Source: Streptosporangium lutulentum (lineage in GTDB: Bacteria > Actinomycetota > Actinomycetes > Streptosporangiales > Streptosporangiaceae). Taken from it: a stretch of 64,000 nt of DNA. A program made the position numbers and the translations under genes. The stretch is taken from the NCBI RefSeq assembly GCF_030811455.1, contig NZ_JAUSQU010000001.1, positions 1,922,001-1,986,000 of the forward strand. Direction: 5' to 3'. The notes under the pieces were generated by a model. The model was not told the DNA's origin, ran no database searches, and saw nothing but the letters and a program-made list of their open reading frames with translations. Below, in pieces: positions 4,501-29,935 of the stretch. How positions within the stretch are numbered: position 1 is the first letter of the stretch; every line of letters begins with the position of its first letter.

Positions 4501-5574
4501 TCAGCGCCCCCGTGGAGGGGCGGTGGACTGCCGGTTCACCAGGGTGAGCGGCAGCAGGACGGACCGGGCCGGCCGGTTCGGGGCCCGCAAGCGCTCCAGG
4601 AGCAGGTGCGCGGCCTCGGCCCCGACCTCGTAGTGGGGGATGCGCACCGTCGTGAGCGGAGGGCTCAGCTTGTCGACGAAGGGCATGTCGTTGAAGCCGA
4701 CCACGGAGACGTCGCCCGGGCACGACAGCCCGCGCTCCGCCAGGGCGTCGTAGCAGCCGAGCGCGAGGAGGTCGTTGCCCGCCAGGACGGCGGTGAACTC
4801 GACCCCGTCGTCGAGGAGCTCGGCGACCGCCTTCGCGCCGGCGGTCTCGGCCCACGCGGAGCAGAGCTTCAGGCGCGACGGGGAGTTCTCCAGCCCGTGG
4901 TCCTCCAGCGCCTGCCGGAAGGCGCGCAGGCGGTTCACCCCGGTGGAGAGGTCCTGGGGACCGGCGAGGTGGACGATCTTCCGATGACCGAGTTCGACGA
5001 GATGGCGCATCGCCATCGCGACGCCTCCGGCGTCGTCACCCGTCACCGAGGGGATATCGGACAGGGCGAGCCTGCGGTTCACCAGGACGGTGGGGGTGCC
5101 GCCGGCGGCCAGCCGCTCGAGGAGCGGGTGATGGAGGCGCGCCGTCGCGAAGACGAAACCTTCGACGCTCCTGTTCTGGAGGGACTCGACGACGGCCGTC
5201 TCGCGGTCGGGGTCGTTGTCGGTGTTGACGATCCAGGCGTTGTACCCGACGCCGCCGAGCACGTCCTCGACGCCCCTGACGATCGGCGGGAACAGGGGGT
5301 TGGTGAGGTCGGGGATGACCAGGCCGATGCTTGAGGAACGTGCCGTCTTGAGGCTGCGGGCGATGGGGTTCGGCTGGTAGCCGAGCGAGTCCGCGACCCG
5401 GTGCACCCGCTGCGCCGTCTCGTCGTTGACCAGGTGGCGCGTCTCGGGATTCAGCGCGCGGGAGGCCGTCGCCGGGTGGACGCCCGCCTCGCCGGCCACG
5501 TCCTTGAGCGTCGGCCGCCGTGCCGCTGAGGCGGCCTGGACGCCGGGCTCGGTGGCGGGGGACGGAGGCGTCAC
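4501..5574 (-). CDS. LacI-family transcriptional regulator of the catabolic regulon
   Basis: A 357-residue repressor-type protein. The N-terminal LacI helix-turn-helix spans about residues 22-75 (TLKDVAGEAGVHPATASRAL), followed by the hinge (GYQPNPIARSLKTARSSSIG) and a periplasmic-binding-fold effector domain (IGLVIPDLTNPLFPPIVRGV onward). It starts with GTG at 5574, which overlaps the stop of the NMT1-like gene as GTGA, so the two proteins are made together. Two copies of the TGCAANCGATTGCA-type palindrome lie upstream of this operon and four more at other catabolic promoters, as expected for a self-regulating LacI protein. The assignment of these sites to this protein is inferred from motif type and position. 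The effector is unknown. Confidence 0.95.
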   Translation of the reverse strand: MTPPSPATEPGVQAASAARRPTLKDVAGEAGVHPATASRALNPETRHLVNDETAQRVHRVADSLGYQPNPIARSLKTARSSSIGLVIPDLTNPLFPPIVRGVEDVLGGVGYNAWIVNTDNDPDRETAVVESLQNRSVEGFVFATARLHHPLLERLAAGGTPTVLVNRRLALSDIPSVTGDDAGGVAMAMRHLVELGHRKIVHLAGPQDLSTGVNRLRAFRQALEDHGLENSPSRLKLCSAWAETAGAKAVAELLDDGVEFTAVLAGNDLLALGCYDALAERGLSCPGDVSVVGFNDMPFVDKLSPPLTTVRIPHYEVGAEAAHLLLERLRAPNRPARSVLLPLTLVNRQSTAPPRGR

Positions 5575-6485
5575 GGCGCGGCTCCCGGCAGGAAGCGCTC
5601 GTCCAGGAGCCCGGTGTCGCGCAGCAGGGCGCCGGCGAGGTCGGCCGAGCCGGCGTGGTGGCGCGTCCGCAGTGTCACCAGCGTGTCAAGCGACTCCCGG
5701 TCCACGCGGCCGCCGGCGACGAGTCCCTCCTCGGGGTCGGCGAGCAGCTCGACGTACCGCCGGACGTCGTCGTCGCCCAGCTTCAGGAGCCGCGCGGTGA
5801 CCGACGACGCGAGTTCGTGGAGGCGCCCGGCGGCCAGCTGTCCCGCGGTGTCCACGATGACGCGGGTCAGCGCCGCGAGCGACTCCTCCTCGTGCCCCCC
5901 GGCGCTCGCGAGGACCGTCGCGACGTACGGGCCGAGCTCTCTGGCACGCGAGAGCCTGTGGCAGCCGGCCCCCTCGGCGCGAAGGTCGTTCCCCGCGTTG
6001 AGCACGGTCACCGCGCACCGCCCCTCGGCCAGCGCCTCGGCGCGCCGGGGGGTCGATCCGAGCGCGGTGATCTCGCAGTCGATCCCCGCCTTGACGCCCT
6101 GCCGCGCGAGCAGCTCGTAGGCCACGAAGGCGAAGCCCGAGGTGGGGACGTCGACGGCGAGGACACCCCCGCGCAGCGAGTCGACGTCCTTCACCCCGGG
6201 GGCGGTGAACAGCGACAACCCGAGGCCGCGGTCGACGGCGGCGAGAATCCTCAGGTCGGCGGTGCTTCTGAGGGGGTTGTCCGCGACGAACCGGTAGGCT
6301 AGGACGTTGTCCGGGCTGGTGATGGCCGCGTCGAGCTCGCCTGCGAGCAACGCGGCGAACTGCTCGGGGGAGCTGCGTGCGGGCACCTGGGTGATCGCGA
6401 GCCCGGCTGCGTCGAGTGCTCCGGTCGCCGCGGCGACGCCGAGCACCACGGATGGGCTGAACGTGCCGATCCGCAACGTACGCAT
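5571..6485 (-). CDS. NMT1/THI5-like type 2 binding-fold protein without signal peptide
   Basis: A 304-residue protein with the fold of ABC-importer substrate-binding proteins of the nitrate/taurine/NMT1 type: MRTLRIGTFSPSVVLG at the start, the DAAITSPDN segment near residue 55, and the hinge-region VDVPTSGFAFVAYELL. It lacks any secretion signal or lipobox, so it should stay in the cytoplasm. The ATG at 6485 is chosen because GAGGAGG lies just upstream; the longer frame would run back through the operator DNA. It is the first gene of the lacI operon, with a GTGA overlap. The real binding protein of the transporter is the lipoprotein at 8656. This one may instead present the ligand to the regulator or be an enzyme on the same fold. 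Confidence 0.8.
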   Translation of the reverse strand: MRTLRIGTFSPSVVLGVAAATGALDAAGLAITQVPARSSPEQFAALLAGELDAAITSPDNVLAYRFVADNPLRSTADLRILAAVDRGLGLSLFTAPGVKDVDSLRGGVLAVDVPTSGFAFVAYELLARQGVKAGIDCEITALGSTPRRAEALAEGRCAVTVLNAGNDLRAEGAGCHRLSRARELGPYVATVLASAGGHEEESLAALTRVIVDTAGQLAAGRLHELASSVTARLLKLGDDDVRRYVELLADPEEGLVAGGRVDRESLDTLVTLRTRHHAGSADLAGALLRDTGLLDERFLPGAAP

Positions 6486-6512
6486 GGTCCACCTCCTCTG
6501 GTGACAGGATAG

Positions 6513-6526
6513 AGCAAACGATTGCT
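6513..6526. promoter_or_regulatory. LacI-type operator A (lacI operon, proximal)
   Basis: AGCAAACGATTGCT, a near-perfect palindrome with a central CG. It lies 27 bp upstream of the ATG of the NMT1-like gene, a position where a bound repressor would block transcription of its own operon. It matches five other sites in the window at most positions. Confidence 0.8.
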
Positions 6527-6581
6527 GCGCAAGGATACGCGGCGCCGGGCGAATGAGGTCCATTCGCTTTCGGCTTTCGCA

Positions 6582-6595
6582 TGCAATCGATTGCG
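6582..6595. promoter_or_regulatory. LacI-type operator B (lacI operon, distal)
   Basis: TGCAATCGATTGCG, an almost perfect palindrome around ATCGAT. It is 69 bp centre to centre from operator A. I see no good leftward promoter hexamers next to it. Confidence 0.8.
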
Positions 6596-6768
6596 TCATC
6601 ATGCGGGCAGCTCGGGGCAGCCGGCCCGCGAGGTCTAAAGATCACGAATATGAATGATCGTCGGGTTTGAAAGCCCTTCATTTTTGAGATCCGGGATCCG
6701 GAGGCACCGGGCGGCGGAGTCGGCGGGCGAGAAGTTGTTGACGCCGTCGTAATCCTTAGGTAACGTGC

Positions 6769-6782
6769 CGCAAACGATTGCA
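6769..6782. promoter_or_regulatory. LacI-type operator C (ABC importer operon)
   Basis: CGCAAACGATTGCA begins 2 bp downstream of a -10 hexamer TAACGT. That hexamer is 17 bp from the -35 TTGACG at 6738-6743. A repressor here would cover the transcription start of the importer operon. Confidence 0.82.
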
Positions 6783-6852: not shown

Positions 6853-7743
6853 ATGGTGCACGTCGGGTCTCGCCAGACCGAACGTCCGGCCAAGGAGCAC
6901 GCGAGTACCGTCGGATCCACGCTGATCGAGGCGACTGAGGTCAGTGCGGGATACGACAACCAGCGCGAACGCACGCGACTGATCGCGCTGCGCGACATCT
7001 CCCTCACGGTGACGCAGGGTGAGTTCCTGGCCATCGTCGGTCCGTCGGGGTGCGGCAAGACCACCCTGATCAACATGATCGCCGGATTCGTCAAACCCAT
7101 CTCCGGCTCGGTCAAGGTGCGAGGCGTGGAGGTCGGCGGTCCCGGGGCCGACCGCGCGATGGTGTTCCAGGACTACGCCCTGCTGCCGTGGCGAACCGTC
7201 GAACGCAACGTGGAGTTCGCGATCGAGAACCGGCGAGGACACGTCCCCAAGCCCGAACGGCGGCGCCGCATCGCCGACGCCCTGAAGCTGGTGGGGCTGG
7301 CCGGATTCGAGAAGTCCTACCCGCACGAGCTCTCCGGCGGCATGCGCCAGCGGGTCGGCATCGCCAGGGCGCTCGTCGGCGAGCCCGAGATCCTGCTGAT
7401 GGACGAACCGTTCGGCGCCGTCGACGCCATGACGCGCGAGGCCATGCAGGCCGAGCTGGAGAAGATCATCGCCGAGACGCGGCAGACCGTCGTGTTCATC
7501 ACCCACTCGATCGACGAGGCCATCACGCTCGGCGACCGCATCGTCGTGGTGTCCAACCGCCCCGGAACGATCCGGGAGATCATCGACGTCGACCTGCCGC
7601 GCCCCCGGTTCGACGAGCGCAACGACATCAAGCGATCGGCCAGGTTCGGCGAGATCCGCAGCCATCTCTGGCAGCTTCTCGCGGACGAGGCGCTCGGCGC
7701 CAAATCGGGATCCGTCGCGCAGCAGGAGGTCGAGACCCGATGA
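6853..7743 (+). CDS. ABC importer ATPase, nitrate/sulfonate/taurine (SsuB/TauB) type
   Basis: A 296-residue ATPase that drives uptake through the permease encoded next. It shows Walker [12 protein letters not shown]-loop [10 protein letters not shown], signature [12 protein letters not shown], Walker [13 protein letters not shown] and the switch His in [11 protein letters not shown]. These variants ([18 protein letters not shown]) are those of the NitT/TauT family. The ATG at 6853 is preferred because AAGGAGCTG lies 5 bp upstream; the frame is open further upstream only across the promoter. The stop overlaps the permease start (ATGA). Operator C controls the promoter. The substrate is probably the compound catabolised by the other operator-linked genes. 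Confidence 0.95.
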
Positions 7744-8579
7744 CGCACGCCGTTCCGGCCGGGCAGAGCACCCGGGGCACCGCCCAGATCGAGACGATCG
7801 CCGTCAACAGGTACGCGCGGTTCAGGAGCACGGCGATCACGATCGTCAACCTGTCGGTGTTCTTCCTGATCTGGGAACTCGTCGCGCGTGCCGAGCTGAT
7901 CAACGCCCTGTTCTTCCCCAGGGCGTCGGCCATGTTCGAAGCCATCTACACCGGGTTCGCCGACGGAACGATCTGGCCCGAGCTGTCGCACAGCATCTCG
8001 AACTTCCTGATCGGGCTGGCCATCTCCATCGCCATCGGCATCCCCGTCGGCCTTCTGATGGGGGCGAGCAAGGTCGCGGACCTCATCCTGAGCCCCTATG
8101 TCTGGGCGATGGCGTCGCTGCCCAGGGTCGCCCTGATCCCGTTGCTGATCCTCATCATGGGATTCGACAACTCGATGCAGCTGACCATCATCGTCCTCTC
8201 GGCCGTCTTCCCGATCATGGTCAACTGCATGGCCGGCGTGAAGACCGTCGACCCCTCGCTGCTGCGCGCCGGGCGGGTGTTCGGGACCAGCCGCCTGCAG
8301 ACGTATTCCAAGATCATCTTTCCGTTCACGCTGCCGTTCGTGATCTCGGGCGTGAACCAGGGGATCGCTCGAGGCCTCGTCGGGATGCTGATCGGCGAGC
8401 TTCTCGGCGGCGGCGGCAACGGCCTCGGCTTCCTGCTCGACCGGGCCGGCGACCAGTTCGACGCGCCGATGCTGTACGCGGTCCTGATCCTCCTCGCCAT
8501 CATGTCCGTCGGTCTCATCCAGTCCATGCGCTGGCTGGAGCAACGCGCCGCGCCGTGGCGGGACACCTCGCGCGCGTGA
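7740..8579 (+). CDS. ABC importer permease, SsuC/TauC type
   Basis: A 279-residue inner-membrane protein with about six membrane segments and the binding-protein-dependent transport fold. The segment [20 protein letters not shown] (about residues 180-199) is the EAA-like loop that docks with the ATPase. The ATG at 7740 overlaps the ATPase stop codon by 4 bp, so translation is coupled. A long upstream extension of the frame is only the antisense-like reading of the ATPase gene. Together with the flanking ATPase and lipoprotein it makes a complete importer. Confidence 0.95.
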
Positions 8580-8655: not shown

Positions 8656-9783
8656 ATGAACGGATTCACCCGGTGCCTCGGAACGATCGGCGTGTCACTC
8701 CTCTTCGCGGGCTCGCTGGCCGGATGCGGTGGCTCCGGCGACAGCGCCGGCACCGCCGCCGGCGGCGGTGCCGGCAACGCGCCCATGGACGCCGTCAAGG
8801 CCAACGTGCCCAAGAGCGAGACCGACGTCAGCGGGACGATCGACAAGAGCAAGGTCAAGAAGAGCCTCGTGGTCGGGGTGGACAACCCGTACTACCTCTT
8901 CCACCACGACATCGAGGTCGCGCTCGTCAAGGGCTACTTCAAGGAGTTCGGCATCGACTCCGTCGAGATCAAGACGATCGAGGACCCGCTGCCGCCGCTC
9001 ATCGGCGGCTCGCTCGACCTGGCCCTGTACGACACCGACACGGCGATCACCGCGGCCAAGAAGAGCGGCCAGGGCCTGCGGTTCCTCTCGGTCTACCTCG
9101 GTGGCGAGGCGAACATCCTGGGGGTGGGCAAGGGGATCACCTCGGGGGCCGACCTGAAGGGCAAGACCATCACCGGCGGCCAGTTCGGCAGCCGCAACGA
9201 CGCGATCATCCGTCAGCTGCTCCGGGACAACGGCGTCGAACCCGACAGGGACGTCAAGATCGTCAGCACCGGCGGCCAGTCGAACGAGCGGCTGCAGTCG
9301 GTGATCGCCGGCACCGTCGACGGCGCCAGCATCCAGTTGCGCCACCGCACGGTGCTGGAGAAGGCGGGCGGCAAGGTCCTGTTCCAGGAGACCCGCGAAG
9401 TGCCGCAGAGCGGCTGGTCGGCGAACAAACTCCTCCAGGAGAGCCCCGAAACCGTGACCGCGTTCCTCGCCGCCACCCTGAAGGCGCGTCAGTTCATCAC
9501 CGACCAGGCCAACAAGGACGAAGTGCTCACCATCATGCGCGACAGGAAGTTCGACATCCCGGCCGAGTACGCGGACGCGTACGGGGCGGAGAACGCGCCG
9601 GACTACCACGTGAGCGACGGCGGATTCAAGCCGGCGGACATGGACAAGTTCATCGGTGACCAGATCGCCTACAAGACGGTGCCCGAGGGGACGGACTGGC
9701 GCGAGTTCACCTACCTCCTCCCGCTCTGGCGCGCGCAGAAGGCTCTGGGCCTTCCGCTCAACCCCGCGCTCGCGGACATGTGA
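8656..9783 (+). CDS. ABC importer substrate-binding lipoprotein (NMT1/SsuA-like)
   Basis: A 375-residue lipoprotein that captures the substrate outside the membrane. The first 25 residues are a signal peptide ending in the lipobox LAGC, followed by a Gly/Ser/Ala-rich linker. The mature part has the NMT1-like fold: YYLFHHDIEVALVKGYFKEF, LYDTDTAITAAKKSG, and a GKTITGGQFGSRNDAII loop of the kind that lines the ligand cleft. AGGAG lies 8 bp upstream of the ATG. It sits 76 bp after the permease in the same operon. The family imports sulfonates, nitrate, riboflavin or pyrimidine precursors, aromatic acids and other small molecules, so the ligand cannot be assigned by family. Confidence 0.93.
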   Translation: MNGFTRCLGTIGVSLLFAGSLAGCGGSGDSAGTAAGGGAGNAPMDAVKANVPKSETDVSGTIDKSKVKKSLVVGVDNPYYLFHHDIEVALVKGYFKEFGIDSVEIKTIEDPLPPLIGGSLDLALYDTDTAITAAKKSGQGLRFLSVYLGGEANILGVGKGITSGADLKGKTITGGQFGSRNDAIIRQLLRDNGVEPDRDVKIVSTGGQSNERLQSVIAGTVDGASIQLRHRTVLEKAGGKVLFQETREVPQSGWSANKLLQESPETVTAFLAATLKARQFITDQANKDEVLTIMRDRKFDIPAEYADAYGAENAPDYHVSDGGFKPADMDKFIGDQIAYKTVPEGTDWREFTYLLPLWRAQKALGLPLNPALADM

Positions 9784-9787
9784 CCCG

Positions 9788-10957
9788 ATGCGCGTGGAAA
9801 CCGCCGAGGCGAAGGGCCTGCGACTGCTCGCGCATCACGATCTCGACGGCAGGGGCGACGGGATGCAGGTGATGCGTCACGAGAACACCCTGTACGTCGG
9901 CCATGCGGGGACGTCGAGGGCGGGAACCTCGATCCTCGACGTCTCGGACCCCCGGCGCCCGAAGCTGGTGGATCAGTGGCCGGCGCCGGACAACACGCAC
10001 ACGCACAAGGTGCAGGTCGCCGACGGCCTGCTGCTGGTCAACCACGAGCGTTTTCCGTACCGGCCCACCGCCCCGCTGGGACCGCACTCGGCGGGCCTGG
10101 CGATATACGACCTCGCCGATCCGCCGGCGCCGAGACGGATCGCGTTCTGGGAGTCCTCCGGCAAGGGCGTTCACCGGATCGTGTGGGAGGGCGGGCGGTT
10201 CGCCCACGTCTCCGTCACGCCGGAGGGCTTCACCGACCGGATCTGGATGATCCTCGACCTGTCGGACCCGTACCACCCGGTGGAGGCGGGCCGGTGGTGG
10301 TGGCCCGGCCAGTGGGAGGCCGGAGGCGAGCGGCCGGACTGGCCGGCCGGGCGACGGCACGCGGCGCATCACGCGCTGCTCGACGGAGACATCGCCTACC
10401 TCGGCTACGACGACGCGAATCTCGTGGTCCTCGACATCGCGGACCCCTCCCGCCCCCGGGCGATCGGGTTCTGCCGATGGGAGGGCGGCGCCACGCACAC
10501 GTGCCTCCCGCTGCCCGGCCGTGACCTGCTCGTCGTCACCGACGAGCAGCAGCAGGACGGACCGCGCGCGCCGGCCCGGCGCATCCACCTGATCGACGTC
10601 GGTGATCCGGCGAACCCGCGCTATCTGGCGGCCCTCCCGGAGCCGGAGGGCGACTTCGGCGCGCTGCCCATGCGGTACGGGCCGCACTGCCTGCACGAGA
10701 ATCGCGCGGGGTCGTTCCAGAGCGGGCGCCTGGTCTTCGCGACGTACTTCAGCGCGGGGGTCCGGGTCTACGACCTGGAGGATTCCGGCCGTCCACGCGA
10801 GATCGCGCACTGGGTCTCGCGGACGCCGCCCGGTCAGGCCGCCCCACAGGCGAACGACCTGTTCGTCGATCGCGACGGCCTCGTCTGGGTGACCGACCGC
10901 ACGAACGGAGGGCTGTTCGTCCTGGAGCCCGAGGGCGAACTCGCCGCTTTGATGTAA
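9788..10957 (+). CDS. LVIVD-type beta-propeller protein, role unknown
   Basis: A 389-residue protein built of repeated beta-propeller blades of the LVIVD type: SILDVSDPRRPKLVDQW, AIYDLADPPAPRRIAFW, MILDLSDPYHPVEAGRWW, VVLDIADPSRPRAIGF, HLIDVGDPANPRYLAAL, VYDLEDSGRPREIAHW. His- and Glu-rich loops between blades (DNTHTHK, HAAHHALL, GGATHTCLPL, YGPHCLHEN) look able to bind a metal or a ligand. No signal peptide is seen. It starts 4 bp after the lipoprotein stop, so it belongs to the importer operon and the LacI regulon. Propellers of this type have few known activities. It could be a lyase, lactonase-like enzyme or binding protein for the imported compound. Confidence 0.88.
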   Translation: MRVETAEAKGLRLLAHHDLDGRGDGMQVMRHENTLYVGHAGTSRAGTSILDVSDPRRPKLVDQWPAPDNTHTHKVQVADGLLLVNHERFPYRPTAPLGPHSAGLAIYDLADPPAPRRIAFWESSGKGVHRIVWEGGRFAHVSVTPEGFTDRIWMILDLSDPYHPVEAGRWWWPGQWEAGGERPDWPAGRRHAAHHALLDGDIAYLGYDDANLVVLDIADPSRPRAIGFCRWEGGATHTCLPLPGRDLLVVTDEQQQDGPRAPARRIHLIDVGDPANPRYLAALPEPEGDFGALPMRYGPHCLHENRAGSFQSGRLVFATYFSAGVRVYDLEDSGRPREIAHWVSRTPPGQAAPQANDLFVDRDGLVWVTDRTNGGLFVLEPEGELAALM

Positions 10958-15459: not shown

Positions 15460-16665
15460 TCAGCCGTACGGCCGCGAGGCGTCGAAGGGAAGGGTGAGCA
15501 GGCCGGGCGGGAACCGGTGCAGGGAGCGGCAGCCGGTGTCGGTGACCACGACCATCTCACCGGTCTGCACGCCGGCGGAGAGATCGGGGGTGCAGACGTT
15601 GGGCTGCACCACGAGCGTCGTCCCCGCGCGCAGCGGCTCGGCGTGCAGGCCGCGCGGGGTGAGGTCGCGCCCGCTCAGAACGGGAGGCAGGTATCCACCG
15701 CCGAGTCCATGGAGGAGATCGTCGACGGTCGACAGCCCTTCGGCCCGGACATGACGCAGGCTCGCCAGCAGCTCGGCGGGCGGGACCCCGGCGCGCAGGC
15801 GGCCCATGACCTCGTCACGGACCGTCTCGGCGACCGCGTGCAGCCGCCGGTACAGCGCGGGGGGCTCGGCGCCGACCACCGCGGTGCGCAGCAGTTGGGC
15901 GGGGTGGTCCTGTCCCCAGCCCGCACTGAGCTCGAACACCACGACGGACCCGGGCCGCGTTACGCGCTCGCCCGGCCACTGGGCCGGGACGCAGCGGTCG
16001 GGCGCGCTCATCGACGTCGTCGTGACGTAGCAGATGTGGTGCGTGCCCCCCTCCGCGCGGTAGGCGTGCTCCGCGGCGGCGACCATCTCCCGCTCGCTCG
16101 CCCCCTGTCCGGCGGCGTCGAGCAGGGCCGCCGCGCCCAGGTCGGTCAGCGCCGCAGCGTGCTCCAGCCACCGCAGTTCCTCGTCGGATTTGACCATGCG
16201 CAGGCGGGTGTAGTGCTCGTCCAGCGTCACGACGGCGCTCGCCCACCCGCCGACGGCGTCCCGCACCCTGGCCGGGACCGGGCCGACGAGGCCGACCCGG
16301 CACGCGGGGCCGAGCCGCCGCAGAGCCCGCACCGCCGCGTGCGCCGGGTCGTCGCCGATCGGGCCGGCCTCGTCGCCGAGGTCCGCGGCGAGAACGGTGC
16401 GCCGGGCGTCGGGCACGTGGTTGTGGAATCCGACGAGCAGATGTCCCGCCCCGTCCGCCGGGAGCACGAAGAGCGCCTCCCGGGTGACCGGCCAGGTGGT
16501 GAGCCAGGGGATGGCACTACCGGTCCGGTTCGCGCCGTACGCGAGGACGACGTCCGCGCCGTGCGCCGTGGCGGCGGCCCGCATGAGCGCACGTCTGGAA
16601 TGCAGTTCCCCGGTGCTGAACGGAGCGGGGGCGACGAGTGGCGATCTGAAGAGCGGCGTTGACAT
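15460..16665 (-). CDS. M24-family (creatinase/prolidase fold) protein with altered metal site
   Basis: A 401-residue protein with an N-terminal creatinase-type domain (residues 1-165) and a C-terminal pita-bread domain. Canonical M24 enzymes use two Asp, one His and two Glu to bind two metals. Here the first Asp region reads VVFELSAGW, the second DHPAQLLRT, the His is kept in LLHGLGGGY, the first Glu is Gln in LVVQPNV and the last Glu is kept in QTGEMVVVTDTG. This suggests a metal-free enzyme like creatinase rather than a peptidase. The ATG at 16665 is preferred (MSTPLFRS). It is divergent from the C-C hydrolase, with an operator between them. Confidence 0.85.
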   Translation of the reverse strand: MSTPLFRSPLVAPAPFSTGELHSRRALMRAAATAHGADVVLAYGANRTGSAIPWLTTWPVTREALFVLPADGAGHLLVGFHNHVPDARRTVLAADLGDEAGPIGDDPAHAAVRALRRLGPACRVGLVGPVPARVRDAVGGWASAVVTLDEHYTRLRMVKSDEELRWLEHAAALTDLGAAALLDAAGQGASEREMVAAAEHAYRAEGGTHHICYVTTTSMSAPDRCVPAQWPGERVTRPGSVVVFELSAGWGQDHPAQLLRTAVVGAEPPALYRRLHAVAETVRDEVMGRLRAGVPPAELLASLRHVRAEGLSTVDDLLHGLGGGYLPPVLSGRDLTPRGLHAEPLRAGTTLVVQPNVCTPDLSAGVQTGEMVVVTDTGCRSLHRFPPGLLTLPFDASRPYG

Positions 16666-16700
16666 GACTCTTATGATCGAACAGTATGCAACCGATTGCA
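16659..16700 (+). promoter_or_regulatory. Promoter and LacI-type operator D (M24 / hydrolase divergent gap)
   Basis: A rightward promoter TTGACA (16659-16664), 17-bp spacer, CAGTAT (16682-16687) runs straight into operator TGCAACCGATTGCA at 16687-16700. A weaker leftward promoter overlapping the operator is possible (TTGCAA, 17 bp, GATCAT). One bound repressor could therefore shut both divergent genes. Confidence 0.82.
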
Positions 16701-17784: not shown

Positions 17785-17830
17785 TTGACACCCGACAGGT
17801 GCCTCAGTAAATTCATGGCAATCGATTGCA
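17785..17830 (+). promoter_or_regulatory. Promoter and LacI-type operator E (dehydrogenase operon)
   Basis: TTGACA (17785-17790), 17-bp spacer, TAAATT (17808-17813), then operator GGCAATCGATTGCA at 17817-17830. The operator covers the predicted transcription start and its end overlaps the AAGGAG ribosome site of the next gene. This is the best promoter in the regulon. Confidence 0.88.
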
Positions 17831-18823: not shown

Positions 18824-20074
18824 ATGAGCAGCACCACAGGACCGCTCGTGCCGGCCCCCGGACGGATGGGCGTCGACTTCGAACAGCGGGTCGACTTCGG
18901 CCGGCTCCGTGACCACCGCCTGTCCCGTGCGCGCGCCGCGCTGGACGCCTCCGAGCTCGGCGCGCTGCTCGTGTTCGACATCAACAACATCCGCTACATC
19001 ACCTCGACGATGATCGGGGAGTGGGCGCGCGACAAGATGGCCCGATACGCGCTGCTGCCCCGTGAGGCCGAACCGGTCCTGTGGGACTTCGGCTCTGCGG
19101 CCAGACACCACCAGCTGTACGCGCCCTGGCTGCGGATGGAGAACTCACGTGCGGGGATGCTCGGCCTGCGCGGCTCCGTCGCACCGGAGGCGGGCCTGTT
19201 CGAGCGGGCCGCCCGCGAGATCAAGGGCGTGCTGGAGGACGCGGGCGTCGCCCATCTGCCCGTCGGCGTCGACGTCGTCGAACCGCCGATGCTCTTCGAG
19301 CTGCAACGCCTCGGCCTCGACGTGCGCGACGGCCAGCAGGTGATGCTCGACGCGCGCCAGATCAAGTCCGCCGACGAGATCGCGCTGCTGTCCACGGCGG
19401 CCGCGATGGTCGACGGCACCTACCAGACGATCGTCGACGCGCTCAAACCCGGCATCCGGGAGAACGAGGTCGTCGCGCTGGCGAACAAGCGCCTGTACGA
19501 CATGGGTTCCGACGACGTGGAGGCCGTCAACGCGGTCTCGGGCGAGCGTTGCAGCCCCCACCCGCACAACTTCACCGACCGCATCATCCGGCCGGGGGAC
19601 CAGGTCTACTTCGACATCATCCAGTCGTTCAACGGCTACCGGACCTGCTACTACCGGACCTTCGCCGTCGGCCGATCCACTCCCGCCCAGCGCGACGCCT
19701 ACAAGCGGGCGCGCGAGTGGATCGACATCGCGATCTCCACGGTGAAACCCGGTGTCGGAACCGACGAGATCGCGCGGCTGTGGCCGCGCGCCGAGGACTT
19801 CGGGTTCGAGGACGAGATGTCGGCCTTCGGCCTGCAGTTCGGCCACGGTCTCGGCCTCGCGCTGCACGAGCGGCCGATCATCAGCCGTCTGAACTCGCTG
19901 GAGAACCCGGTCGAGCTCCAGGCGGGCATGGTCTTCGCCCTGGAGACCTACTGCCCGGCCTCCGACGGTTACTCCGCGGCACGGATCGAGGAGGAAGTCG
20001 TCGTCACGGAGGACGGCCCGCGGGTCATCACTCTCTTCCCGGCAGAGGAGCTGTTCGTTGCCAACCCCTACTGA
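18824..20074 (+). CDS. M24-family protein (creatinase-like), one metal ligand missing
   Basis: A 416-residue pita-bread protein. The N-terminal domain contains LLVFDINNIRYITSTMIGEW, as in creatinase-like members. In the catalytic domain the first Asp is kept (VYFDIIQSFNG), the second Asp position reads CYYRTF where metallo-enzymes have an Asp before the TRTF-like stretch, the His is in FGHGLGLALHERP, and the Glu residues are in FALETYCP and ARIEEEVVV. With a ligand lost it may work without metal, like creatinase. The ATG at 18824 gives MSSTTGPL. It follows the dehydrogenase by 35 bp and overlaps the next gene by 17 bp. It probably cleaves a C-N or similar bond in the pathway. Confidence 0.88.
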   Translation: MSSTTGPLVPAPGRMGVDFEQRVDFGRLRDHRLSRARAALDASELGALLVFDINNIRYITSTMIGEWARDKMARYALLPREAEPVLWDFGSAARHHQLYAPWLRMENSRAGMLGLRGSVAPEAGLFERAAREIKGVLEDAGVAHLPVGVDVVEPPMLFELQRLGLDVRDGQQVMLDARQIKSADEIALLSTAAAMVDGTYQTIVDALKPGIRENEVVALANKRLYDMGSDDVEAVNAVSGERCSPHPHNFTDRIIRPGDQVYFDIIQSFNGYRTCYYRTFAVGRSTPAQRDAYKRAREWIDIAISTVKPGVGTDEIARLWPRAEDFGFEDEMSAFGLQFGHGLGLALHERPIISRLNSLENPVELQAGMVFALETYCPASDGYSAARIEEEVVVTEDGPRVITLFPAEELFVANPY

Positions 20075-21089
20075 TCTAGGACTGCCCGAGACGCCCGCCT
20101 TCCGGCACGAGGTCGACGCGGAGACCGAACTCGAGCTCTACCGGTCCATGGAACGGCTGCGCAGGTTCGAGAAGCGCGCCTACGACCTGTTCCTGCAAAG
20201 CCTGGTCAAAGGCACCAGCCACCTGTCGCTGGGACAGGAGGCGATCGCGGCGGCGTTCGGGGCGAGCATGCGCCCCGACGACTGGACGTTCGCGACCTAC
20301 CGCGGGCACGCGCACACCCTCGCCCGGGGGGTCGCGATGGAGCCCATCATGGCCGAGCTGCTCGGGCGATCCACCGGCCTGATGGCCGGCAAGGGCGGCT
20401 CGATGCACCTGACCAGCGTCGAACACGGCGTCATGGGCTCCTACGCCATCATCGGCGCGCACCTGACCATCGCCAACGGCGCCGCCTGGTCGGCGAAGCT
20501 GCGCGGCACCGACCAGGTCGCCGTCTGCTTCTTCGGCGACGGCACGACCAACATCGGGGCGTTCCACGAGGCCCTCAACCTCGCGGCGACCTGGAAGCTC
20601 CCGGTCGTCTTCGTCTGCGAGAACAACCAGTGGATGGAGTACACCCCGATCGGCAGCGTCACCGCCGTACCCCGCCCGGCCGCCGACCGCGCGGCGGCGT
20701 ACGGCCTGGAGCCGGTCGTCGTCGACGGCAACGACGCGACCGCGATGTACGCGGCCGCGCGCGACGCCCTCCGGCACGCGCGCTCGGGGCACGGGCCGGT
20801 GCTGATCGAGGCGCTGACCTACCGGCACGGCGGGCACTCACGGGCGGATCCCGCGAAGTACCGCCCCGCCGAAGAGGTCGAGCCGTGGCTCCTGCGGGAT
20901 CCGCTCGTGACCTACCGGGCGCACCTGCTGCGCAAGGGCGTGGAGGAGGGAGTGCTGAAAGGGATCGACGAAGACGTCCTGCGCGAGGTGGACGACGCCA
21001 CCGAGGCGGCGAGGAACGCGCCGGAGCCGGACCTGACCCTCATCGAGCGTGACGTATGGGCTGACGGGAGCTCGGCATGGCGCAACTGA
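20058..21089 (+). CDS. 2-oxoacid dehydrogenase E1 component, alpha subunit
   Basis: A 343-residue thiamine-diphosphate subunit. The TPP motif runs from FFGDGTTNIGAFHEA to VFVCENNQW with the expected spacing, and the loop region RHGGHSRAD matches the E1 alpha phosphorylation-loop position. It starts with TTG at 20058, preceded by AGAGGAG, inside the end of the M24 gene. With the next gene it forms an alpha2beta2 E1, as in pyruvate, branched-chain or acetoin dehydrogenase systems. No E2 or E3 gene is present in the operon, so it must borrow them or reduce another acceptor. Confidence 0.93.
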   Translation: MPTPTDLGLPETPAFRHEVDAETELELYRSMERLRRFEKRAYDLFLQSLVKGTSHLSLGQEAIAAAFGASMRPDDWTFATYRGHAHTLARGVAMEPIMAELLGRSTGLMAGKGGSMHLTSVEHGVMGSYAIIGAHLTIANGAAWSAKLRGTDQVAVCFFGDGTTNIGAFHEALNLAATWKLPVVFVCENNQWMEYTPIGSVTAVPRPAADRAAAYGLEPVVVDGNDATAMYAAARDALRHARSGHGPVLIEALTYRHGGHSRADPAKYRPAEEVEPWLLRDPLVTYRAHLLRKGVEEGVLKGIDEDVLREVDDATEAARNAPEPDLTLIERDVWADGSSAWRN

Positions 21090-21132: not shown

Positions 21133-22107
21133 ATGACGCTGATGACCTACCGCGACGCCGTGGCACGGGGCATCGCACAAGAACTCGAACGCGACGACAG
21201 GGTGGTCTTCCTCGGCGAGGACGTCGGCGCGGCGGGCGGCGTGTTCAAGGCGACCGGAGGACTGCTCGAAAGATTCGGGCCGCTGCGCGTCGCCGACACG
21301 CCCATCTCCGAACAGGCCATCCTCGGCGCCGCGATGGGCGCGGCGATGACCGGGCTGCGCCCGATCGCCGAGATCATGTTCTCCGACTTCCTCGCCGTGT
21401 GCTGGGACCTGGTCGCGAACGAGATCGCCAAGACCCGCTACATGACCAATGGGCAGATCTCGCTCCCGCTGGTCATCCGGACCGGAAACGGCGGCGGGCT
21501 GCGGTTCGGCGCCCAGCATTCGCAGAGCCTCGAGAACTGGGCCATGGCCGTGCCCGGCCTGAAGGTGGTGGCCCCGTCCACGCCCGAGGACGTCGTCGGC
21601 CTGCTCGCGGCCGCGGTGCGTGACCCCGACCCCGTGATGTTCTTCGAGCACAAGGGGCTGTACCCCACGAAGGGGGAGGTCCCCGACGGGGAGATCGTCG
21701 ACACCCTGGGCACCGCGAAGGTGCGGCGGCGGGGAACCGACTGCACGATCCTCGCGCTGGCCGCGATGGTGCCCCGGGCGCTGAAGGCCGCCGACGCGCT
21801 CGCCGCGGCGGGCGTCAACGCGACGGTCGTGGACGTCCGCTCCCTGGTCCCGCTCGACACCGCGACGATCCTCGACGCCGTCGCCCGGACCGGGCAGCTG
21901 TTCACCGTGGAGGAGAACCCCCGGCTGTGCGGCTGGGGCGCCGAGATCGTCTCGGTCGTCGTCGAGGAGATCTGGGACGACCTCGACGGACCTCCGATCC
22001 GGATCACCACCCCGCACGTCCCGCTCCCGTCCTCGGACACGCTTGAGGACGCCACGATCCCCTCGGTCACGCGCATCGTGGACACCGTACGGAAGGTGAT
22101 GGAGTGA
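21133..22107 (+). CDS. 2-oxoacid dehydrogenase E1 component, beta subunit
   Basis: A 324-residue transketolase-like subunit partnered with the E1 alpha upstream. Characteristic stretches are VVFLGEDVGAAGGVFKAT near residue 24, DTPISEQAILGAAMGAA near 56, and VVDVRSLVPLDTATILDAV in the C-terminal domain. It lies 43 bp after E1 alpha and its stop shares a base with the start of the aldehyde dehydrogenase gene (TGATG). Substrates of the family include pyruvate, acetoin and branched 2-oxoacids. Here a pathway-specific 2-oxoacid or alpha-hydroxyketone is likely. Confidence 0.93.
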   Translation: MTLMTYRDAVARGIAQELERDDRVVFLGEDVGAAGGVFKATGGLLERFGPLRVADTPISEQAILGAAMGAAMTGLRPIAEIMFSDFLAVCWDLVANEIAKTRYMTNGQISLPLVIRTGNGGGLRFGAQHSQSLENWAMAVPGLKVVAPSTPEDVVGLLAAAVRDPDPVMFFEHKGLYPTKGEVPDGEIVDTLGTAKVRRRGTDCTILALAAMVPRALKAADALAAAGVNATVVDVRSLVPLDTATILDAVARTGQLFTVEENPRLCGWGAEIVSVVVEEIWDDLDGPPIRITTPHVPLPSSDTLEDATIPSVTRIVDTVRKVME

Positions 22108-23558
22108 TGAGCGCCGAGGCGCTCGCCCTCGCCCCCACGGACCTGCTGGTCGGCGGCCGGTGGCGGCCGGCGAGCGCCGGTTCGGTGATGGACGTGCACG
22201 ACCCGGCCACCACCGAGGTCCTCGCCCAGGTCGCCGACGGCGGGGTGGAGGACGCGACGGCCGCCGTTGCCGCCGCCGCGGACGCCGGTCCCGCCTGGGC
22301 CGCCACCCCGCCCCGCCTGCGGGCGGAGGTGCTCAGGCGGGCGTTCACGCTGATGACCGAACGCGCGGAGCCGCTCGCCGCGTTGGTCGTGCTGGAGAAC
22401 GGCAAGGCGCTGCCGGACGCGCGGGGAGAGATCGCCTACGCCGCGGAGTTCTTCCGGTGGTACGCGGAGGAGGCCGTGCGCGCGACGGGCTCCCTCTCCA
22501 CGGCCCCGGCGGGGGCCAACCGCATCCTCGTGCTGCACCAGCCGGTGGGCGTGTGCGTCCTCGTCACCCCGTGGAACTTCCCCGCCGCGATGGCGACCCG
22601 CAAGATCGCACCGGCTCTCGCCGCCGGGTGCTCCATGGTGCTCAAGCCCGCCGGCGACACGCCCCTGACCGCGCTCGCGATCGGCGCGATCCTCGCGGAG
22701 GCCGGGGTGCCCGACGGCGTCGTCAACATCGTGCCGTCACGGCGCTCCGGGGCGGTGGTGTCGGCGATGCTGCACGACCCCAGGGTGCGCAAGCTCTCCT
22801 TCACCGGAAGCACCGAGGTGGGCCGGGTCCTGCTGCGCGAGGCGGCGGACCGCGTGGTGAACACGTCCATGGAGCTGGGCGGCAACGCGCCGTTCCTCGT
22901 GCTCGACGACGCGGACGTGGAGGCGGCCGTCGCCGGCGCGATGCTCGCCAAGATGCGCAACGGCGGCGAGGCGTGCACCGCGGCCAACCGCTTCTACGTC
23001 CACCGCCGGGTCGCCGGGGAGTTCTCGAAGGGGCTCGCCGCCGCGATGGACGCCCTCGTCGTCGGGCCGGGGCTCGAACCCGGAACGCAGGTCGGACCGC
23101 TGGTCAACCAGGCCGCCGTCGACAAGGTGAGCGCACTGGTCGAGGGCGCGGTCGACGACGGCGCCCGGCTGCTGGCCGGAGGCGGTCCGGTGGACCGGCG
23201 AGGGTGGTTCTACCGGCCCACCGTCCTCGGCGACGTCGACCCCTCCTCGGCGATCCTCCGGGAGGAGATCTTCGGGCCGGTCGCCCCGATCGTGGTCTTC
23301 GACGACCTCGACGAGGCCGTCCGGCTCGCCAATGACACCGAGTACGGCCTGGTGTCGTACGTCTACACCGGCGACCTGGCGCGCGGGCTGCGGGTGGGCG
23401 AGGCGCTCGAGGCGGGAATGATCGGCTTGAACCGGGGCGTGGTGAGCGACCCCGCGGCGCCGTTCGGCGGGGTGAAGCAGAGCGGCATCGGCCGCGAGGG
23501 CGGCCACGACGGCCTGCTCGACTACCTGGAGTCCAAGTACGTGGCGGTGCGGTGGTGA
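22107..23558 (+). CDS. NAD(P)-dependent aldehyde dehydrogenase, succinate-semialdehyde type
   Basis: A 483-residue aldehyde dehydrogenase of normal length. Conserved parts are TPWNFPAAMATRKIAPAL, the cofactor loop FTGSTEVG, catalytic Glu in MELGGNAPF, catalytic Cys in GGEACTAANRF and the C-terminal EEIFGPVAPI and PFGGVKQSGIGREGG. These resemble GabD/SSADH enzymes. It is the last gene of the operon started at operator E. Succinic semialdehyde or a related C4 semialdehyde is a sensible end product of the pathway. The operon ends only 51 bp before an IS insertion. Confidence 0.92.
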   Translation: MSAEALALAPTDLLVGGRWRPASAGSVMDVHDPATTEVLAQVADGGVEDATAAVAAAADAGPAWAATPPRLRAEVLRRAFTLMTERAEPLAALVVLENGKALPDARGEIAYAAEFFRWYAEEAVRATGSLSTAPAGANRILVLHQPVGVCVLVTPWNFPAAMATRKIAPALAAGCSMVLKPAGDTPLTALAIGAILAEAGVPDGVVNIVPSRRSGAVVSAMLHDPRVRKLSFTGSTEVGRVLLREAADRVVNTSMELGGNAPFLVLDDADVEAAVAGAMLAKMRNGGEACTAANRFYVHRRVAGEFSKGLAAAMDALVVGPGLEPGTQVGPLVNQAAVDKVSALVEGAVDDGARLLAGGGPVDRRGWFYRPTVLGDVDPSSAILREEIFGPVAPIVVFDDLDEAVRLANDTEYGLVSYVYTGDLARGLRVGEALEAGMIGLNRGVVSDPAAPFGGVKQSGIGREGGHDGLLDYLESKYVAVRW

Positions 23559-23609
23559 ACCGCCACCATGGGCCGCCGACGCGGCGCCGCCGGGCGCGGG
23601 GCGGCGGCG

Positions 23610-25949: not shown

Positions 25950-26077
25950 GCCCTCTCGTACGCGGCTGGTGAGCTTGCCCTCAGGTCGGGTCTCCTGGCA
26001 GCCGGGTGGCATCCCCTCTCCTCGCCCATCTCCACCTCGACCGAGTCATCGCCCTCACCGACATCGCGGACTGAGCG

Positions 26078-26926: not shown

Positions 26927-26991
26927 GAGGCCCCTTCTCTTCGGCTTCGGCCCTCATGGCACCACAGCATGATCCGCGTCACAAGACCACC

Positions 26992-27090
26992 GCCCGGTTC
27001 TGCCGCCCTACGTCCCCGAGCTCAACCCCGTCGAACAGACCTGGGCCCATCTGAAGACCCCGCTGGCCAACCGGCCGAATAGTGGTTCAG
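26992..27090 (+). pseudogene. IS630-type transposase C-terminal relic
   Basis: A forward frame reads VLPPYVPELNPVEQTWAHLK and then TPLANR, matching the C-terminal DDE signature of IS630/Tc1-type transposases (LPxYxPxLNPVE-W-LK). No upstream catalytic region or start is present. The reading then degrades. It lies directly left of the second IS right end and is evidence of repeated insertion in this island. Confidence 0.75.
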
Positions 27091-27144
27091 GCACACATTC
27101 CGTGATCTCCCTGTTCGAGAAGCCCTGCAGGCGATCGCGCTGGA

Positions 27145-27188
27145 CCGCGCAGGCGAACATCACGATCTGAATCCCGAACAGGCCCTAG
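27145..27188 (+). repeat. Second copy of the IS right end, abutting the molybdenum hydroxylase gene
   Basis: Forty-four bases match the right end of the IS at 24483-24526 with two differences, in the same orientation and again ending CGAACAGGCC-CTAG. The CTAG provides the TAG stop codon of the molybdenum hydroxylase gene on the other strand (27187-27185). The left part of this copy is gone. Confidence 0.85.
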
Positions 27189-29392
27189 TCGTCCATGGCG
27201 GCGACGATCCGCTCGGCGGTGATCGGCAGATCCCGGACCCGCACGCCGACCGCGGCGGCCACCGCGTTGCCGACGGCCGCCGCGGTGGGGCCCTGCGCCG
27301 CCTCGCCGGCGCCGACCGACGGCTCGTCCGGCCGGTCGATCACCTCGACCACGACCTCCGGCACCTCGGTGAACCGGAGGATGGGGTAGCTCTCCCAGTC
27401 GTCGCTGGTGATCCGGGTCCGGTCGAACCGCACCCGCTCCTTGAGGGTCCAGCTCACGGACTGGACCGCCCCGCCCTCGATCTGGTTCGCGACGCCGTCG
27501 GGATTGACCACGCGGCCGACGTCGACGGCGATCGTGAGCCGGCGCACGCGGACGTCGCGCACCGCCTCCACCTCGGCGACCACCGCGCAGTACGCGCCGC
27601 TGTCCTTGTACCTCGCGAAGCCGATGCCGCAGGCGACGCCGTCCTCCCCGGGCGGTCCTGGCCGTCCGGGCCAGCCGGCGGCCAGGGCCGCCCGCTCCAC
27701 GACCTCCCGCGCCCGCGGGTCGGTGAGATGCGCGAGGCGGTACTCGAGCGCGTCGCGTCCGGCCGCGGCGGCGAGCTCGTCGATGAAGGACTCGATCGCG
27801 AAGACGTTGAGGTAGGCGCCCAGCGTCCGCAGCGCGGACGTGCGGATCGGCGTCGTCAGGACGCGATGCGCCCTGATGGCACGACGCGGGATCACGTATA
27901 GGGGAACGGCGTTGCGCGCGGTGCCGCCACCGCCCGCGAGTACGGGATCGGCGGACGGGGGGAGGGGGTGGGGCCGCTCCGTGTGCGCCGCGGCGAGCAG
28001 CCCCGGGGATCCCGCGTATCCCGGGCGGGCCGTGTGCCCGTAGCTCCACACGTCGTAGGTCCACGACAGGAGCCGTCCGTCCGGAGCCAGGTCCGCGCCG
28101 ACGTCGGCGACCATCGCGGAACCCATGGGGCTCCAGGTCAGCTCGTCCGCCCGGCTCCACACCACGTGCACCGGCCTGCCGGGGACCGCGCGGGCGAGGA
28201 GCACGGCGTCGTAGGCGGCGTCGTCGGCGCCGTTGTGGCCGTAGGCGCCGGCGCCCTCGACATGGTGCACGGTCACGGTGGCGACGTCGATTCCGGCGGC
28301 CCGGGCGATGGCGCGGCGCAGCGGGTGGATGCCCTGGCTGTGCGACCAGACGGTGAGCCCGTCCTCGTCCCACCGGGCGGCGCCGCAGCTCGGCGCGATG
28401 GAGGCGTGGGCGATGAAGCCGCGCGTGTAGGTCGCCGACCTCGAGGTGGCCGTCGAGGCCGGCTCGTCCTCGGCCAGCTCGTCGTCACCCGCTGCGGCGG
28501 TCGCGGACCCGGCGCCGCCTTCGCGTGCCGTGGCCGTCCCGGGTCCGGCGCCGTCGTCGCGCACCACGGTCGTCTCGGTCTCCGCGCCGCGCAGCACCGC
28601 CCGCATCGACTCCTGCGGTGGCAGGGAATCCTCCTGCCGCCACCGGCAGGCGCGGCGCAGCGCGGCGGCCGCCCTCTCCGCCCCGGTCTCCGTCTCGGCA
28701 ACGACGCCCAGGAAGTCTCCGTCGCGGACGACCGCGACGACCCCGGGCAGCCGTTCCACGGGAACGGGGTCGAACGCGAGCAGCCGCGCGGCCGGAGACG
28801 GCGGCCGTACGACGCGGCCGGCGAGCTGTCCGGGCAGGGAGAGGTCGTGGATGAAACGCGGCCGTCCGGTCAGCTTGTCCGGCAGGTCGACGCGGGCGGC
28901 GCTCGTGCCCACCACGGCGTGCCCGGTCACGGGCCTCGGCGAGGCGAGGCCCCGGATCTCCCGATCGAGGTCGACGCCCGCCGCCAGCTCCCAGTAGGAG
29001 GTCTTCCAGGTGCCGTCACGATCCCGCAGGACGCCGTCCGCCACGACCACCTCGTCCGCGCCGGCTCCGAACGCCGCCGCGGCCCGCTGGACGAACAGGG
29101 CGCGGGCCTCGGCGCACGCCACGCGCAGCGCCTCGGAGTCGGCGATCGACATGCTTCCCGCGGTGAGGCCCTGATCCGGTCCTGAGGCGGTGGTGGCCGG
29201 CAGGACCCGGACGCGATGCGGGGCGATCCCGAGCTCGTCGGCCGCGACCTGGCCCAGGGCGGTCAGGATGCCCTGCCCGAGCTCGACCTTGCCACTGAAC
29301 ACGTGGACGGTCCCGTCGTCGTGGATCGTGAGCCACTGCGACACCCGTGGGTTCGCCGCGATGCCCCGTGGCAGGGAACCGGGCGAGGTCAT
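27185..29392 (-). CDS. Molybdenum hydroxylase large subunit (IorB/xanthine dehydrogenase family)
   Basis: A 735-residue molybdopterin subunit that would hydroxylate a carbon next to ring nitrogen or an aldehyde using water. Motifs include FSGKVELGQGILTALGQVAADE near the N-terminus, the Mo-pterin region GAGAYGHNGADDAA and the active-site Glu in VGAGEAAQGPTAAA near the C-terminus. A low-complexity Ala/Gly/Glu/Thr segment lies around residues 275-320. It resembles isoquinoline 1-oxidoreductase/nicotinate dehydrogenase-type enzymes, which lack a FAD subunit. It overlaps the small subunit gene by ATGA. Its C-terminus runs exactly into an IS end, so the last residues could have been trimmed. Confidence 0.92.
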   Translation of the reverse strand: MTSPGSLPRGIAANPRVSQWLTIHDDGTVHVFSGKVELGQGILTALGQVAADELGIAPHRVRVLPATTASGPDQGLTAGSMSIADSEALRVACAEARALFVQRAAAAFGAGADEVVVADGVLRDRDGTWKTSYWELAAGVDLDREIRGLASPRPVTGHAVVGTSAARVDLPDKLTGRPRFIHDLSLPGQLAGRVVRPPSPAARLLAFDPVPVERLPGVVAVVRDGDFLGVVAETETGAERAAAALRRACRWRQEDSLPPQESMRAVLRGAETETTVVRDDGAGPGTATAREGGAGSATAAAGDDELAEDEPASTATSRSATYTRGFIAHASIAPSCGAARWDEDGLTVWSHSQGIHPLRRAIARAAGIDVATVTVHHVEGAGAYGHNGADDAAYDAVLLARAVPGRPVHVVWSRADELTWSPMGSAMVADVGADLAPDGRLLSWTYDVWSYGHTARPGYAGSPGLLAAAHTERPHPLPPSADPVLAGGGGTARNAVPLYVIPRRAIRAHRVLTTPIRTSALRTLGAYLNVFAIESFIDELAAAAGRDALEYRLAHLTDPRAREVVERAALAAGWPGRPGPPGEDGVACGIGFARYKDSGAYCAVVAEVEAVRDVRVRRLTIAVDVGRVVNPDGVANQIEGGAVQSVSWTLKERVRFDRTRITSDDWESYPILRFTEVPEVVVEVIDRPDEPSVGAGEAAQGPTAAAVGNAVAAAVGVRVRDLPITAERIVAAMDD

Positions 29393-29883
29393 CGGCGGTC
29401 CTCCCTCGCGGCGCGCATCACGGCACGGATCATGCGCCGCTGGGCGCCGCAGCGGCAGAGGTTGCGGTCGAGCGCCTCGGCCACCTCCCGTTCGTCCGGC
29501 TCGGGGTTGCGGGCGAGGAGCGCGGCGGCGCTGACCAGGATTCCGGACAGGCAGTACCCGCACTGGCCGGCCTGCTCGTCGAGGAAGGCGCGCTGCAGCG
29601 GGTGGGGGGTGTCGAGGTCGCCGAGCCCCTCGACGGTGACGACGTCCTTGCCCTCGGCCGCCCAGAGGGGGGTGTCGCAGGACGGCGTCGGATGCCCGTC
29701 GAGCAGTACGAAGCACGCGCCGCACAGCCCGGCTCCGCACCCGAAGCGCGGCCCCTTGAGGCCGAGATCCTCCCGGAGGACGTGCAGAAGGCTCGTCTCC
29801 GCGTCGGCGCCGACCGAACGCCTGACCCCGTTGACGGTCATCTCATGCGTCACGTCGTCTCGGCCCCCTCTGTGAGCACTCAT
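29389..29883 (-). CDS. Molybdenum hydroxylase small subunit with two [2Fe-2S] clusters
   Basis: A 164-residue iron-sulfur subunit. The plant-type ferredoxin cluster is bound by GCGAGLCGACFVLLDG plus a Cys in PTPSCDTP, and the second by QCGYCLSGILV and LCRCGAQRRM. It passes electrons from the molybdenum subunit to an acceptor. No FAD subunit gene is next to it. The ATG at 29883 gives MSAHRGGRDDV; a later in-frame start about 11 codons on is possible. Operator F lies 7 bp upstream, so transcription should be under the LacI regulator. Confidence 0.93.
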   Translation of the reverse strand: MSAHRGGRDDVTHEMTVNGVRRSVGADAETSLLHVLREDLGLKGPRFGCGAGLCGACFVLLDGHPTPSCDTPLWAAEGKDVVTVEGLGDLDTPHPLQRAFLDEQAGQCGYCLSGILVSAAALLARNPEPDEREVAEALDRNLCRCGAQRRMIRAVMRAAREDRR

Positions 29884-29890
29884 ATGTTCC

Positions 29891-29935
29891 TGCAAACGAT
29901 TGCCAACGATGTCCCGTAAGAATGCCACACGTCAA
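29891..29935 (-). promoter_or_regulatory. Promoter and LacI-type operator F (molybdenum hydroxylase operon)
   Basis: On the minus strand TTGACG (29935-29930), a 17-bp spacer, ACATCG (29912-29907), then 2 bp, then operator GGCAATCGTTTGCA (29904-29891). The geometry equals that of promoters C and E. The -10 hexamer is weak, the operator is good. Confidence 0.78.

Follow-up and report, generated by a model that had tools for sequence, protein, structure and literature searches.

LacI-family repressors have been surveyed by Ravcheev et al. (2014, PMC4052901), who found operators with a CG centre for 1173 of the 1303 regulators studied and a carbohydrate role for 176 of the 182 groups to which a pathway could be assigned. 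The local regulons described there follow a common plan, in which an even, CG-centred palindrome lies just upstream of a start, the repressor acts on its own gene, and the remaining targets are an importer plus catabolic genes. Here, we describe a system on this plan in a 64-kb stretch of the Streptosporangium lutulentum genome (the window). At five promoter regions, its LacI-family repressor (4501-5574) very probably recognises the palindrome GCAANCGNTTGC, and would thereby hold a single catabolic system silent as long as no inducer is there. The locus departs from the local regulons of that survey in its members, among which no sugar enzymes were recognisable; no regulog of this gene set was found in the sections of the survey consulted. 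A LacI regulon is, of course, a known kind of system. The gene set and the pathway appear new within the literature searched, most subscription papers lying outside the search, and to that extent the remark in the initial annotation that no described pathway has exactly this set holds.

Individual parts of the locus also have described counterparts. The half site of the operator is nearly the same as that of the PurR operator type, which we take to be GCAAACGTTTGC. Unlike the PurR type, the window LacI carries a histidine in its recognition helix where 25 of 30 LacI genes of its own genome carry serine, and its members look catabolic. The pyridine pathway of nicotine breakdown uses the molybdenum (Mo) hydroxylase Kdh, the DHPON hydrolase and a succinate-semialdehyde dehydrogenase (SSADH), in that order. 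The window holds the same enzyme families for these three steps. Its Mo enzyme, however, has two subunits, unlike that of the nicotine pathway, in which we know of no counterpart to the metalloenzyme M24b, the dehydrogenase HIBDH or the E1 pair of a 2-oxoacid dehydrogenase. Among proteins of solved structure, M24b comes nearest, along almost all of its sequence, to DddP, a lyase of dimethylsulfoniopropionate (DMSP) with the same M24 fold. Unlike DddP, M24b has His348 at the position of Asp377, presumably the catalytic residue, and Cys275 at that of one Asp presumed to bind metal. These mismatches led us to reject M24b as a lyase of DMSP or of dimethylsulfoxonium propionate (DMSOP), and no function for it was found in the literature searched.

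The palindrome GCAANCGNTTGC is common to all six operator sites in the window (Table 1). Located directly in the window sequence, each lies where the initial annotation had put it and has the core that it had described as shared. That annotation had also spoken of four separated operons; the sites do lie upstream of genes, with centres 14-104 bp from likely start codons (chosen by upstream sequence), but the promoter regions number five. These precede SBP0-lacI (two sites, before the repressor's own operon), the importer, the divergent M24a/hydrolase pair, the dehydrogenase operon and the Mo hydroxylase.

Exact copies of the motif are rare. The core CAANCGNTTGC has 12 strand hits (the six palindromic sites) in the window, where shuffled sequence gave a mean of 0.23 and 12 hits were reached in none of 100 shuffles. 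Only seven exact palindromes occur in the 10.64-Mb genome, six of them in one 23-kb part of the window; the same pattern read backwards occurs 12 times. Exact copies thus cluster in this stretch. In a position matrix, the six sites score 21.1-26.9 and the next-best place in the window 10.3, scores that show only the gap, since the matrix was derived from those same sites.

The repressor, which has both the DNA-binding and the ligand-binding domain of its family, is tied to this motif by its recognition helix. Its genome has 38 LacI-like matches at E <= 1e-15, the window lacI included. The helix survey covers the 30 stronger of these, the eight weaker being left out; besides the 25 with serine, two have glycine, one alanine and two histidine. 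The two His-type genes are the window lacI and that of L145, and the seventh exact site of the genome (C1:6116182) lies 170-200 bp upstream of the latter. Each exact site in the genome is therefore either in the cluster or beside the other His-type LacI among the 30. This second His-type LacI (7031-8194 of L179), with its own GCAACCGGTTGC site, adjoins an ABC permease and a GFO/IDH-family gene.

The same pairing was followed across genera. Thirteen aligned M24b proteins were used to scan one genome per species, and the best 80 of 581 loci were kept, so that the sample leans to close M24b relatives (69-94% identity; the closest among the loci listed is that of Nonomuraea cypriaca, at 94%). The organisms include Nonomuraea, Actinomadura, Mycolicibacterium and Streptomyces, together with metagenome-assembled genomes labelled Chloroflexi, Eremiobacterota, Acidobacteria and Gammaproteobacteria, labels that can be wrong. 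LacI homologues at 38% identity or more, with the helix position covered, comprise 50 proteins from 49 of these loci, and all 50 have the histidine beside the conserved valine of the helix; adding the own-family stretches, of which at least four repeat named organisms, gives 57 of 57 rows. An exact site is present in 31 of the 49 loci with a His-type LacI versus 7 of the 31 others (Fisher p 0.0005, the loci not being independent).

In the 1,419,805 bases of the 80 loci there are 72 exact sites, spread over 38 loci, against four for the reversed control. This places the motif first of 180 palindromes built from the permuted half site, the runner-up having 20. Of the 72 sites, 61 are at most 500 bp upstream of a mapped gene of the set or at most 60 bp past its start, and none lies deeper inside one. 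Further, the pentamer TTGAC starts 28-45 bp before a site 47 times in 156 flanks (both strands of 78 sites, the window's six included), where shuffles gave an expectation of 2.2 and a maximum of 8 in 500; four of the six window sites have this box. The operator thus sits downstream of TTGAC, over the -10/+1 region of a sigma-70-type promoter, which makes repression the natural reading.

Conservation was also examined within the family. A search of 297 of its genomes with M24b gave a match at E <= 1e-60 in 68 genomes, the own one included, and 19 stretches from 18 genomes were mapped (L039 continues L038). Fourteen of the 19 (L038, L041-L049, L051-L053, L056) carry exact sites, which precede HIBDH and/or fall between SBP0 and the importer; in the sister stretch L038 another separates M24a from the hydrolase. 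Operator 6769 was also found in L038, L049 and L057, and operator 16687 is kept in L038 and, as a one-base variant, in L057. The genome G048 condenses the arrangement into about 14 kb, in the order aldehyde dehydrogenase (ALDH), M24b, HIBDH, site, lacI, SBP0, site, ATPase-permease-solute-binding protein-LVIVD, hydrolase (41% identity), the 2Fe-2S subunit (FeS) and the molybdopterin subunit (MoL) of the Mo hydroxylase; M24a was not seen at this locus, and the nearby E1 genes are only 37-38% alike.

Eight relatives were scanned whole, and 12 stretches examined, including that of the window genome's own seventh site and L182, which continues the G048 locus. Sites were found before operons distant from M24b. 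In the sister genome G196, on another contig, an operator stands 22 bp ahead of the stretch that aligns with FeS (94%; the start codon is uncertain), followed by MoL (85%), which backs the sixth window site (29891). The ATPase-permease-solute-binding protein-LVIVD operon (76-85%) has two operators before it both in G022, where M24b shares the contig at a distance of about 190 kb, and in G077, where M24b is on a different contig. The sites are conserved before orthologous operons, then, in 14 of 19 family stretches, in 38 of 80 named loci, and before distant operons in three genomes. In L128, L130 and L135, whose labels are Woeseiaceae or Gammaproteobacteria, M24b is accompanied by sites, a 46-47% identical LacI, HIBDH, FeS and MoL, with both E1 genes in L128, E1 beta in L130 and ALDH in L135.

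Exact sites are also present in L173, L174, L175, L177, L178, L180 and L181. In L171 (8894) and L172 (3036), from two genomes of one genus, the importer operon has a third exact site beyond its 3' end, about 4.2-4.3 kb from the promoter sites and preceding no start; it is possibly a looping operator.

Several findings weigh against one regulon with these boundaries. Exact sites are missing from five of the 19 family stretches (L039, L040, L050, L054, L055), from 42 of the 80 named loci, and from 18 of the 49 with a His-type LacI; in some of these 18 a palindrome with one mismatch lies close to a start (TGCACACGTTTGCA in L120, L123 and L134 is an example), and in others there is none. Eleven of the 72 sites match no mapped gene start. 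Site 6582 was not found in two close relatives, sister L038 and L057, and neither SBP0-lacI site has the TTGAC box. The operon that holds the E1 pair has no E2 or E3 gene. In seven of the eight whole relatives there are fewer exact copies (2-12 per genome over all eight) than copies of the reversed control, and in one there are more, so that matches elsewhere in these genomes may be chance; all eight have exact matches beyond those accounted for here. In the window's own genome the 207 one-mismatch forms are fewer than the control's 446; degenerate copies are not enriched, and only the exact motif discriminates.

How far do such observations favour other accounts of the sites? The abundance of those 207 one-mismatch forms might suggest that the sites are chance or selfish repeats, an account that is hardly credible when the exact forms cluster in the stretch and precede the same genes in relatives. 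The sites might instead be real and be bound by one or more other LacI-family proteins, the cluster's own LacI controlling only part of the set. A genome with 38 LacI matches offers candidates enough. Only two of the 30 surveyed carry the His-type helix, however, and the other of these has a site of its own nearby, with its own neighbours, so we consider such an exchange of regulators improbable. The joining of these operons into a LacI regulon, as the initial annotation had it, draws its support from the rarity of the motif, its footprint in relatives, the co-conserved helix histidine and a TTGAC box that usually precedes the sites by 28-45 bp; the binding itself we infer.

In the regulon so proposed, LacI would sit on the GCAANCGNTTGC palindromes of the five promoter regions, just past the -35-like TTGAC box where there is one, and, when bound, would block RNA polymerase. 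An inducer would release it, turning on the NMT1/SsuA-type ABC importer, the DHPON-hydrolase-like enzyme with the divergent M24 hydrolase, the two-subunit Mo hydroxylase, the operon of beta-hydroxyacid dehydrogenase, M24b, E1 alpha/beta and aldehyde dehydrogenase, and lacI itself with the probably cytosolic, solute-binding-like SBP0. In the enzyme order that we propose, the product would pass via a 2-oxo acid and/or a semialdehyde into central metabolism.

Table 1. Genes and operators of the proposed regulon (window positions; families from Pfam and NCBIfam)
Feature	Position	Strand	Remarks
LacI-family repressor	4501..5574	minus	helix VHPATASRALN; Pfam LacI (PF00356) and Peripla_BP_3 (PF13377) above cut-off
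SBP0, solute-binding fold	5571..6485	minus	first gene of lacI operon; Pfam Phosphonate-bd weak; start 6485 probable
Operator AGCAAACGATTGCT	6513..6526 (listed at 6514)		before SBP0-lacI; centre 34.5 bp upstream of SBP0 start 6485
Operator TGCAATCGATTGCG	6582..6595 (listed at 6583)		before SBP0-lacI; centre 103.5 bp upstream of 6485
Operator CGCAAACGATTGCA	6769..6782 (listed at 6770)		before importer operon; centre 77.5 bp upstream of start 6853
ABC transporter ATPase	6853..7743	plus	nearest nitrate/taurine-type models, below their cut-offs
ABC transporter permease	7740..8579	plus	Pfam/NCBIfam
NMT1/SsuA-like solute-binding protein	8656..9783	plus	lipoprotein-like N-terminus by eye
LVIVD-repeat protein	9788..10957	plus	best matches 68-90% identical, in relatives' importer operons
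M24a metallohydrolase family protein	15460..16665	minus	divergent from alpha/beta hydrolase
Operator TGCAACCGATTGCA	16687..16700 (listed at 16688)		between M24a and alpha/beta hydrolase; centre 28.5 (16665) / 23.5 bp (16717) from starts
Alpha/beta hydrolase, DHPON C-C hydrolase relative	16717..17781	plus	2JBW, E 6.6e-47
Operator GGCAATCGATTGCA	17817..17830 (listed at 17818)		centre 17.5 bp upstream of dehydrogenase start 17841
HIBDH, 3-hydroxyisobutyrate/tartronate-semialdehyde-type dehydrogenase	17841..18788	plus	Pfam/NCBIfam
M24b metalloenzyme family protein	18824..20074	plus	anchor of conserved cluster; Cys275 at DddP metal-Asp position
2-oxoacid dehydrogenase E1 alpha	20058..21089	plus	Pfam/NCBIfam
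2-oxoacid dehydrogenase E1 beta	21133..22107	plus	Pfam/NCBIfam
Aldehyde dehydrogenase (ALDH)	22104..23558	plus	nearest model succinate-semialdehyde dehydrogenase, below cut-off
Molybdopterin subunit (MoL), xanthine-dehydrogenase-family hydroxylase	27185..29392	minus	Pfam/NCBIfam
2Fe-2S subunit (FeS) of Mo hydroxylase	29389..29883	minus	start 29883 or possibly 29841
Operator GGCAATCGTTTGCA	29891..29904 (listed at 29892)	minus	before 2Fe-2S subunit; centre 14.5 bp from start 29883

The protein families fit the roles in uptake and oxidation that the initial annotation had given the members. The C-C cleavage that it also named is suggested by homology: the alpha/beta hydrolase aligns over residues 11-353 of 354 with the DHPON hydrolase structure, with the Ser/Asp/His triad matched. 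The molybdopterin-binding subunit and the adjacent 2Fe-2S subunit make up a two-subunit Mo hydroxylase. A ferredoxin-NAD reductase-like gene (34474-35709) has an 87% identical homologue in G196 directly before the FeS-MoL operator there, and its product is a candidate electron route for that enzyme. SBP0 begins straight at its fold with no evident signal peptide, as do most of 36 homologue rows (by eye, two distant ones excepted), and it may be a cytosolic ligand-binding partner. An MFS-like transporter gene (13520-14986, named by eye) contains a 33-bp tandem repeat of 3.6 copies (13798-13915), and transposase-like remnants, judged by eye from reading frames, lie between ALDH and the Mo hydroxylase (23600-24500 and 26000-27150).

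M24b anchors the conserved cluster. Its residues Asp264, His341, Glu374, Glu389 and Cys275 are invariant in all 13 aligned sequences, the metal-binding positions being those generally known for M24 enzymes. At 40% identity or more within the stretch examined, the 80 loci contain HIBDH in 64, LacI in 46, ALDH in 33, E1 beta in 31, E1 alpha in 29, the alpha/beta hydrolase in 23, SBP0 in 20, FeS in 11, MoL in 10 and the NMT1-type solute-binding protein in 3. The importers differ among loci (NMT1-type, Liv-type, TRAP-like by eye, annotated sugar ABC), which suggests that a common lower pathway is entered at different points. M24b adjoins E1 alpha/beta in many of the named loci. On the roseobacter plasmids L137 and L138, M24b relatives (64-66%) stand with E1 alpha/beta, a lipoyl protein, SSADH and E2, and beside genes annotated as sugar ABC transporters; L138 (Phaeobacter) also has dihydrolipoyl dehydrogenase (Lpd). 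The adjacency to E1 and these plasmid clusters make a 2-oxo acid or acyloin the probable intermediate after M24b. L088 carries genes for a thiamine pyrophosphate (TPP) enzyme and a transketolase.

What substrate enters this pathway is a matter on which the enzymes point in different directions. One tentative answer is an N-heterocycle (pyridine-, pyrimidine- or lactam-like), which the Mo hydroxylase would oxygenate; after ring opening the DHPON-like hydrolase would cut a C-C bond and the M24 enzymes amides. The presence of the Mo hydroxylase and the DHPON hydrolase homology speak for it, as do two plasmids on which M24b relatives lie near a flavin reductase gene accompanied by one for a luciferase-like monooxygenase, or by RidA and cupin genes. 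Yet FeS and the hydrolase occur in only the 11 and 23 of 80 loci counted above, and the LacI groups with an assigned pathway in the survey's main text overwhelmingly serve carbohydrates. That same preponderance favours a sugar-acid- or polyol-like substrate, the importer and the entry enzymes having been exchanged from species to species, as do the best NCBIfam model of HIBDH (tartronate semialdehyde reductase, below cut-off) and the sugar ABC transporters annotated beside M24b relatives in roseobacters. Against it, the Pfam and NCBIfam assignments of the window members include no recognisable sugar kinase, aldolase, glycosidase or sugar isomerase, and a Mo hydroxylase with a DHPON-like hydrolase would be odd for sugars. 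We hold each of the two answers to be less likely than not, the N-heterocycle being slightly ahead.

Pyridine, pyrazine and vitamin B6 pathways are further possibilities. Pantothenate breakdown (pantoate oxidation by HIBDH/ALDH, M24b as pantothenase, E1 acting on 2-oxoisovalerate) was considered and set aside; a literature search turned up no paper on it, judged by title. The recurrent neighbours in 99 loci, named by eye from their sequences (E2-like 30, VOC-like 23, GntR-like 19), did not single out any substrate.

Returning to the LacI regulon, its wider meaning lies in the breadth of its core. Among the best 80 of 581 loci, M24b at the identities given above spans many genera and, by their labels, several phyla. 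The chances seem to us evenly balanced that these loci represent a widespread, undescribed pathway around an M24 metalloenzyme with an unusual metal-site cysteine, in Actinobacteria, Proteobacteria and other phyla, governed by its own His-helix LacI lineage as a regulog for a non-sugar nutrient with interchangeable importers. The operators define which genes belong to the set and could serve directly as a reporter in the search for the substrate. Should the inducer prove not to be a sugar, the known range of LacI effectors would be extended.

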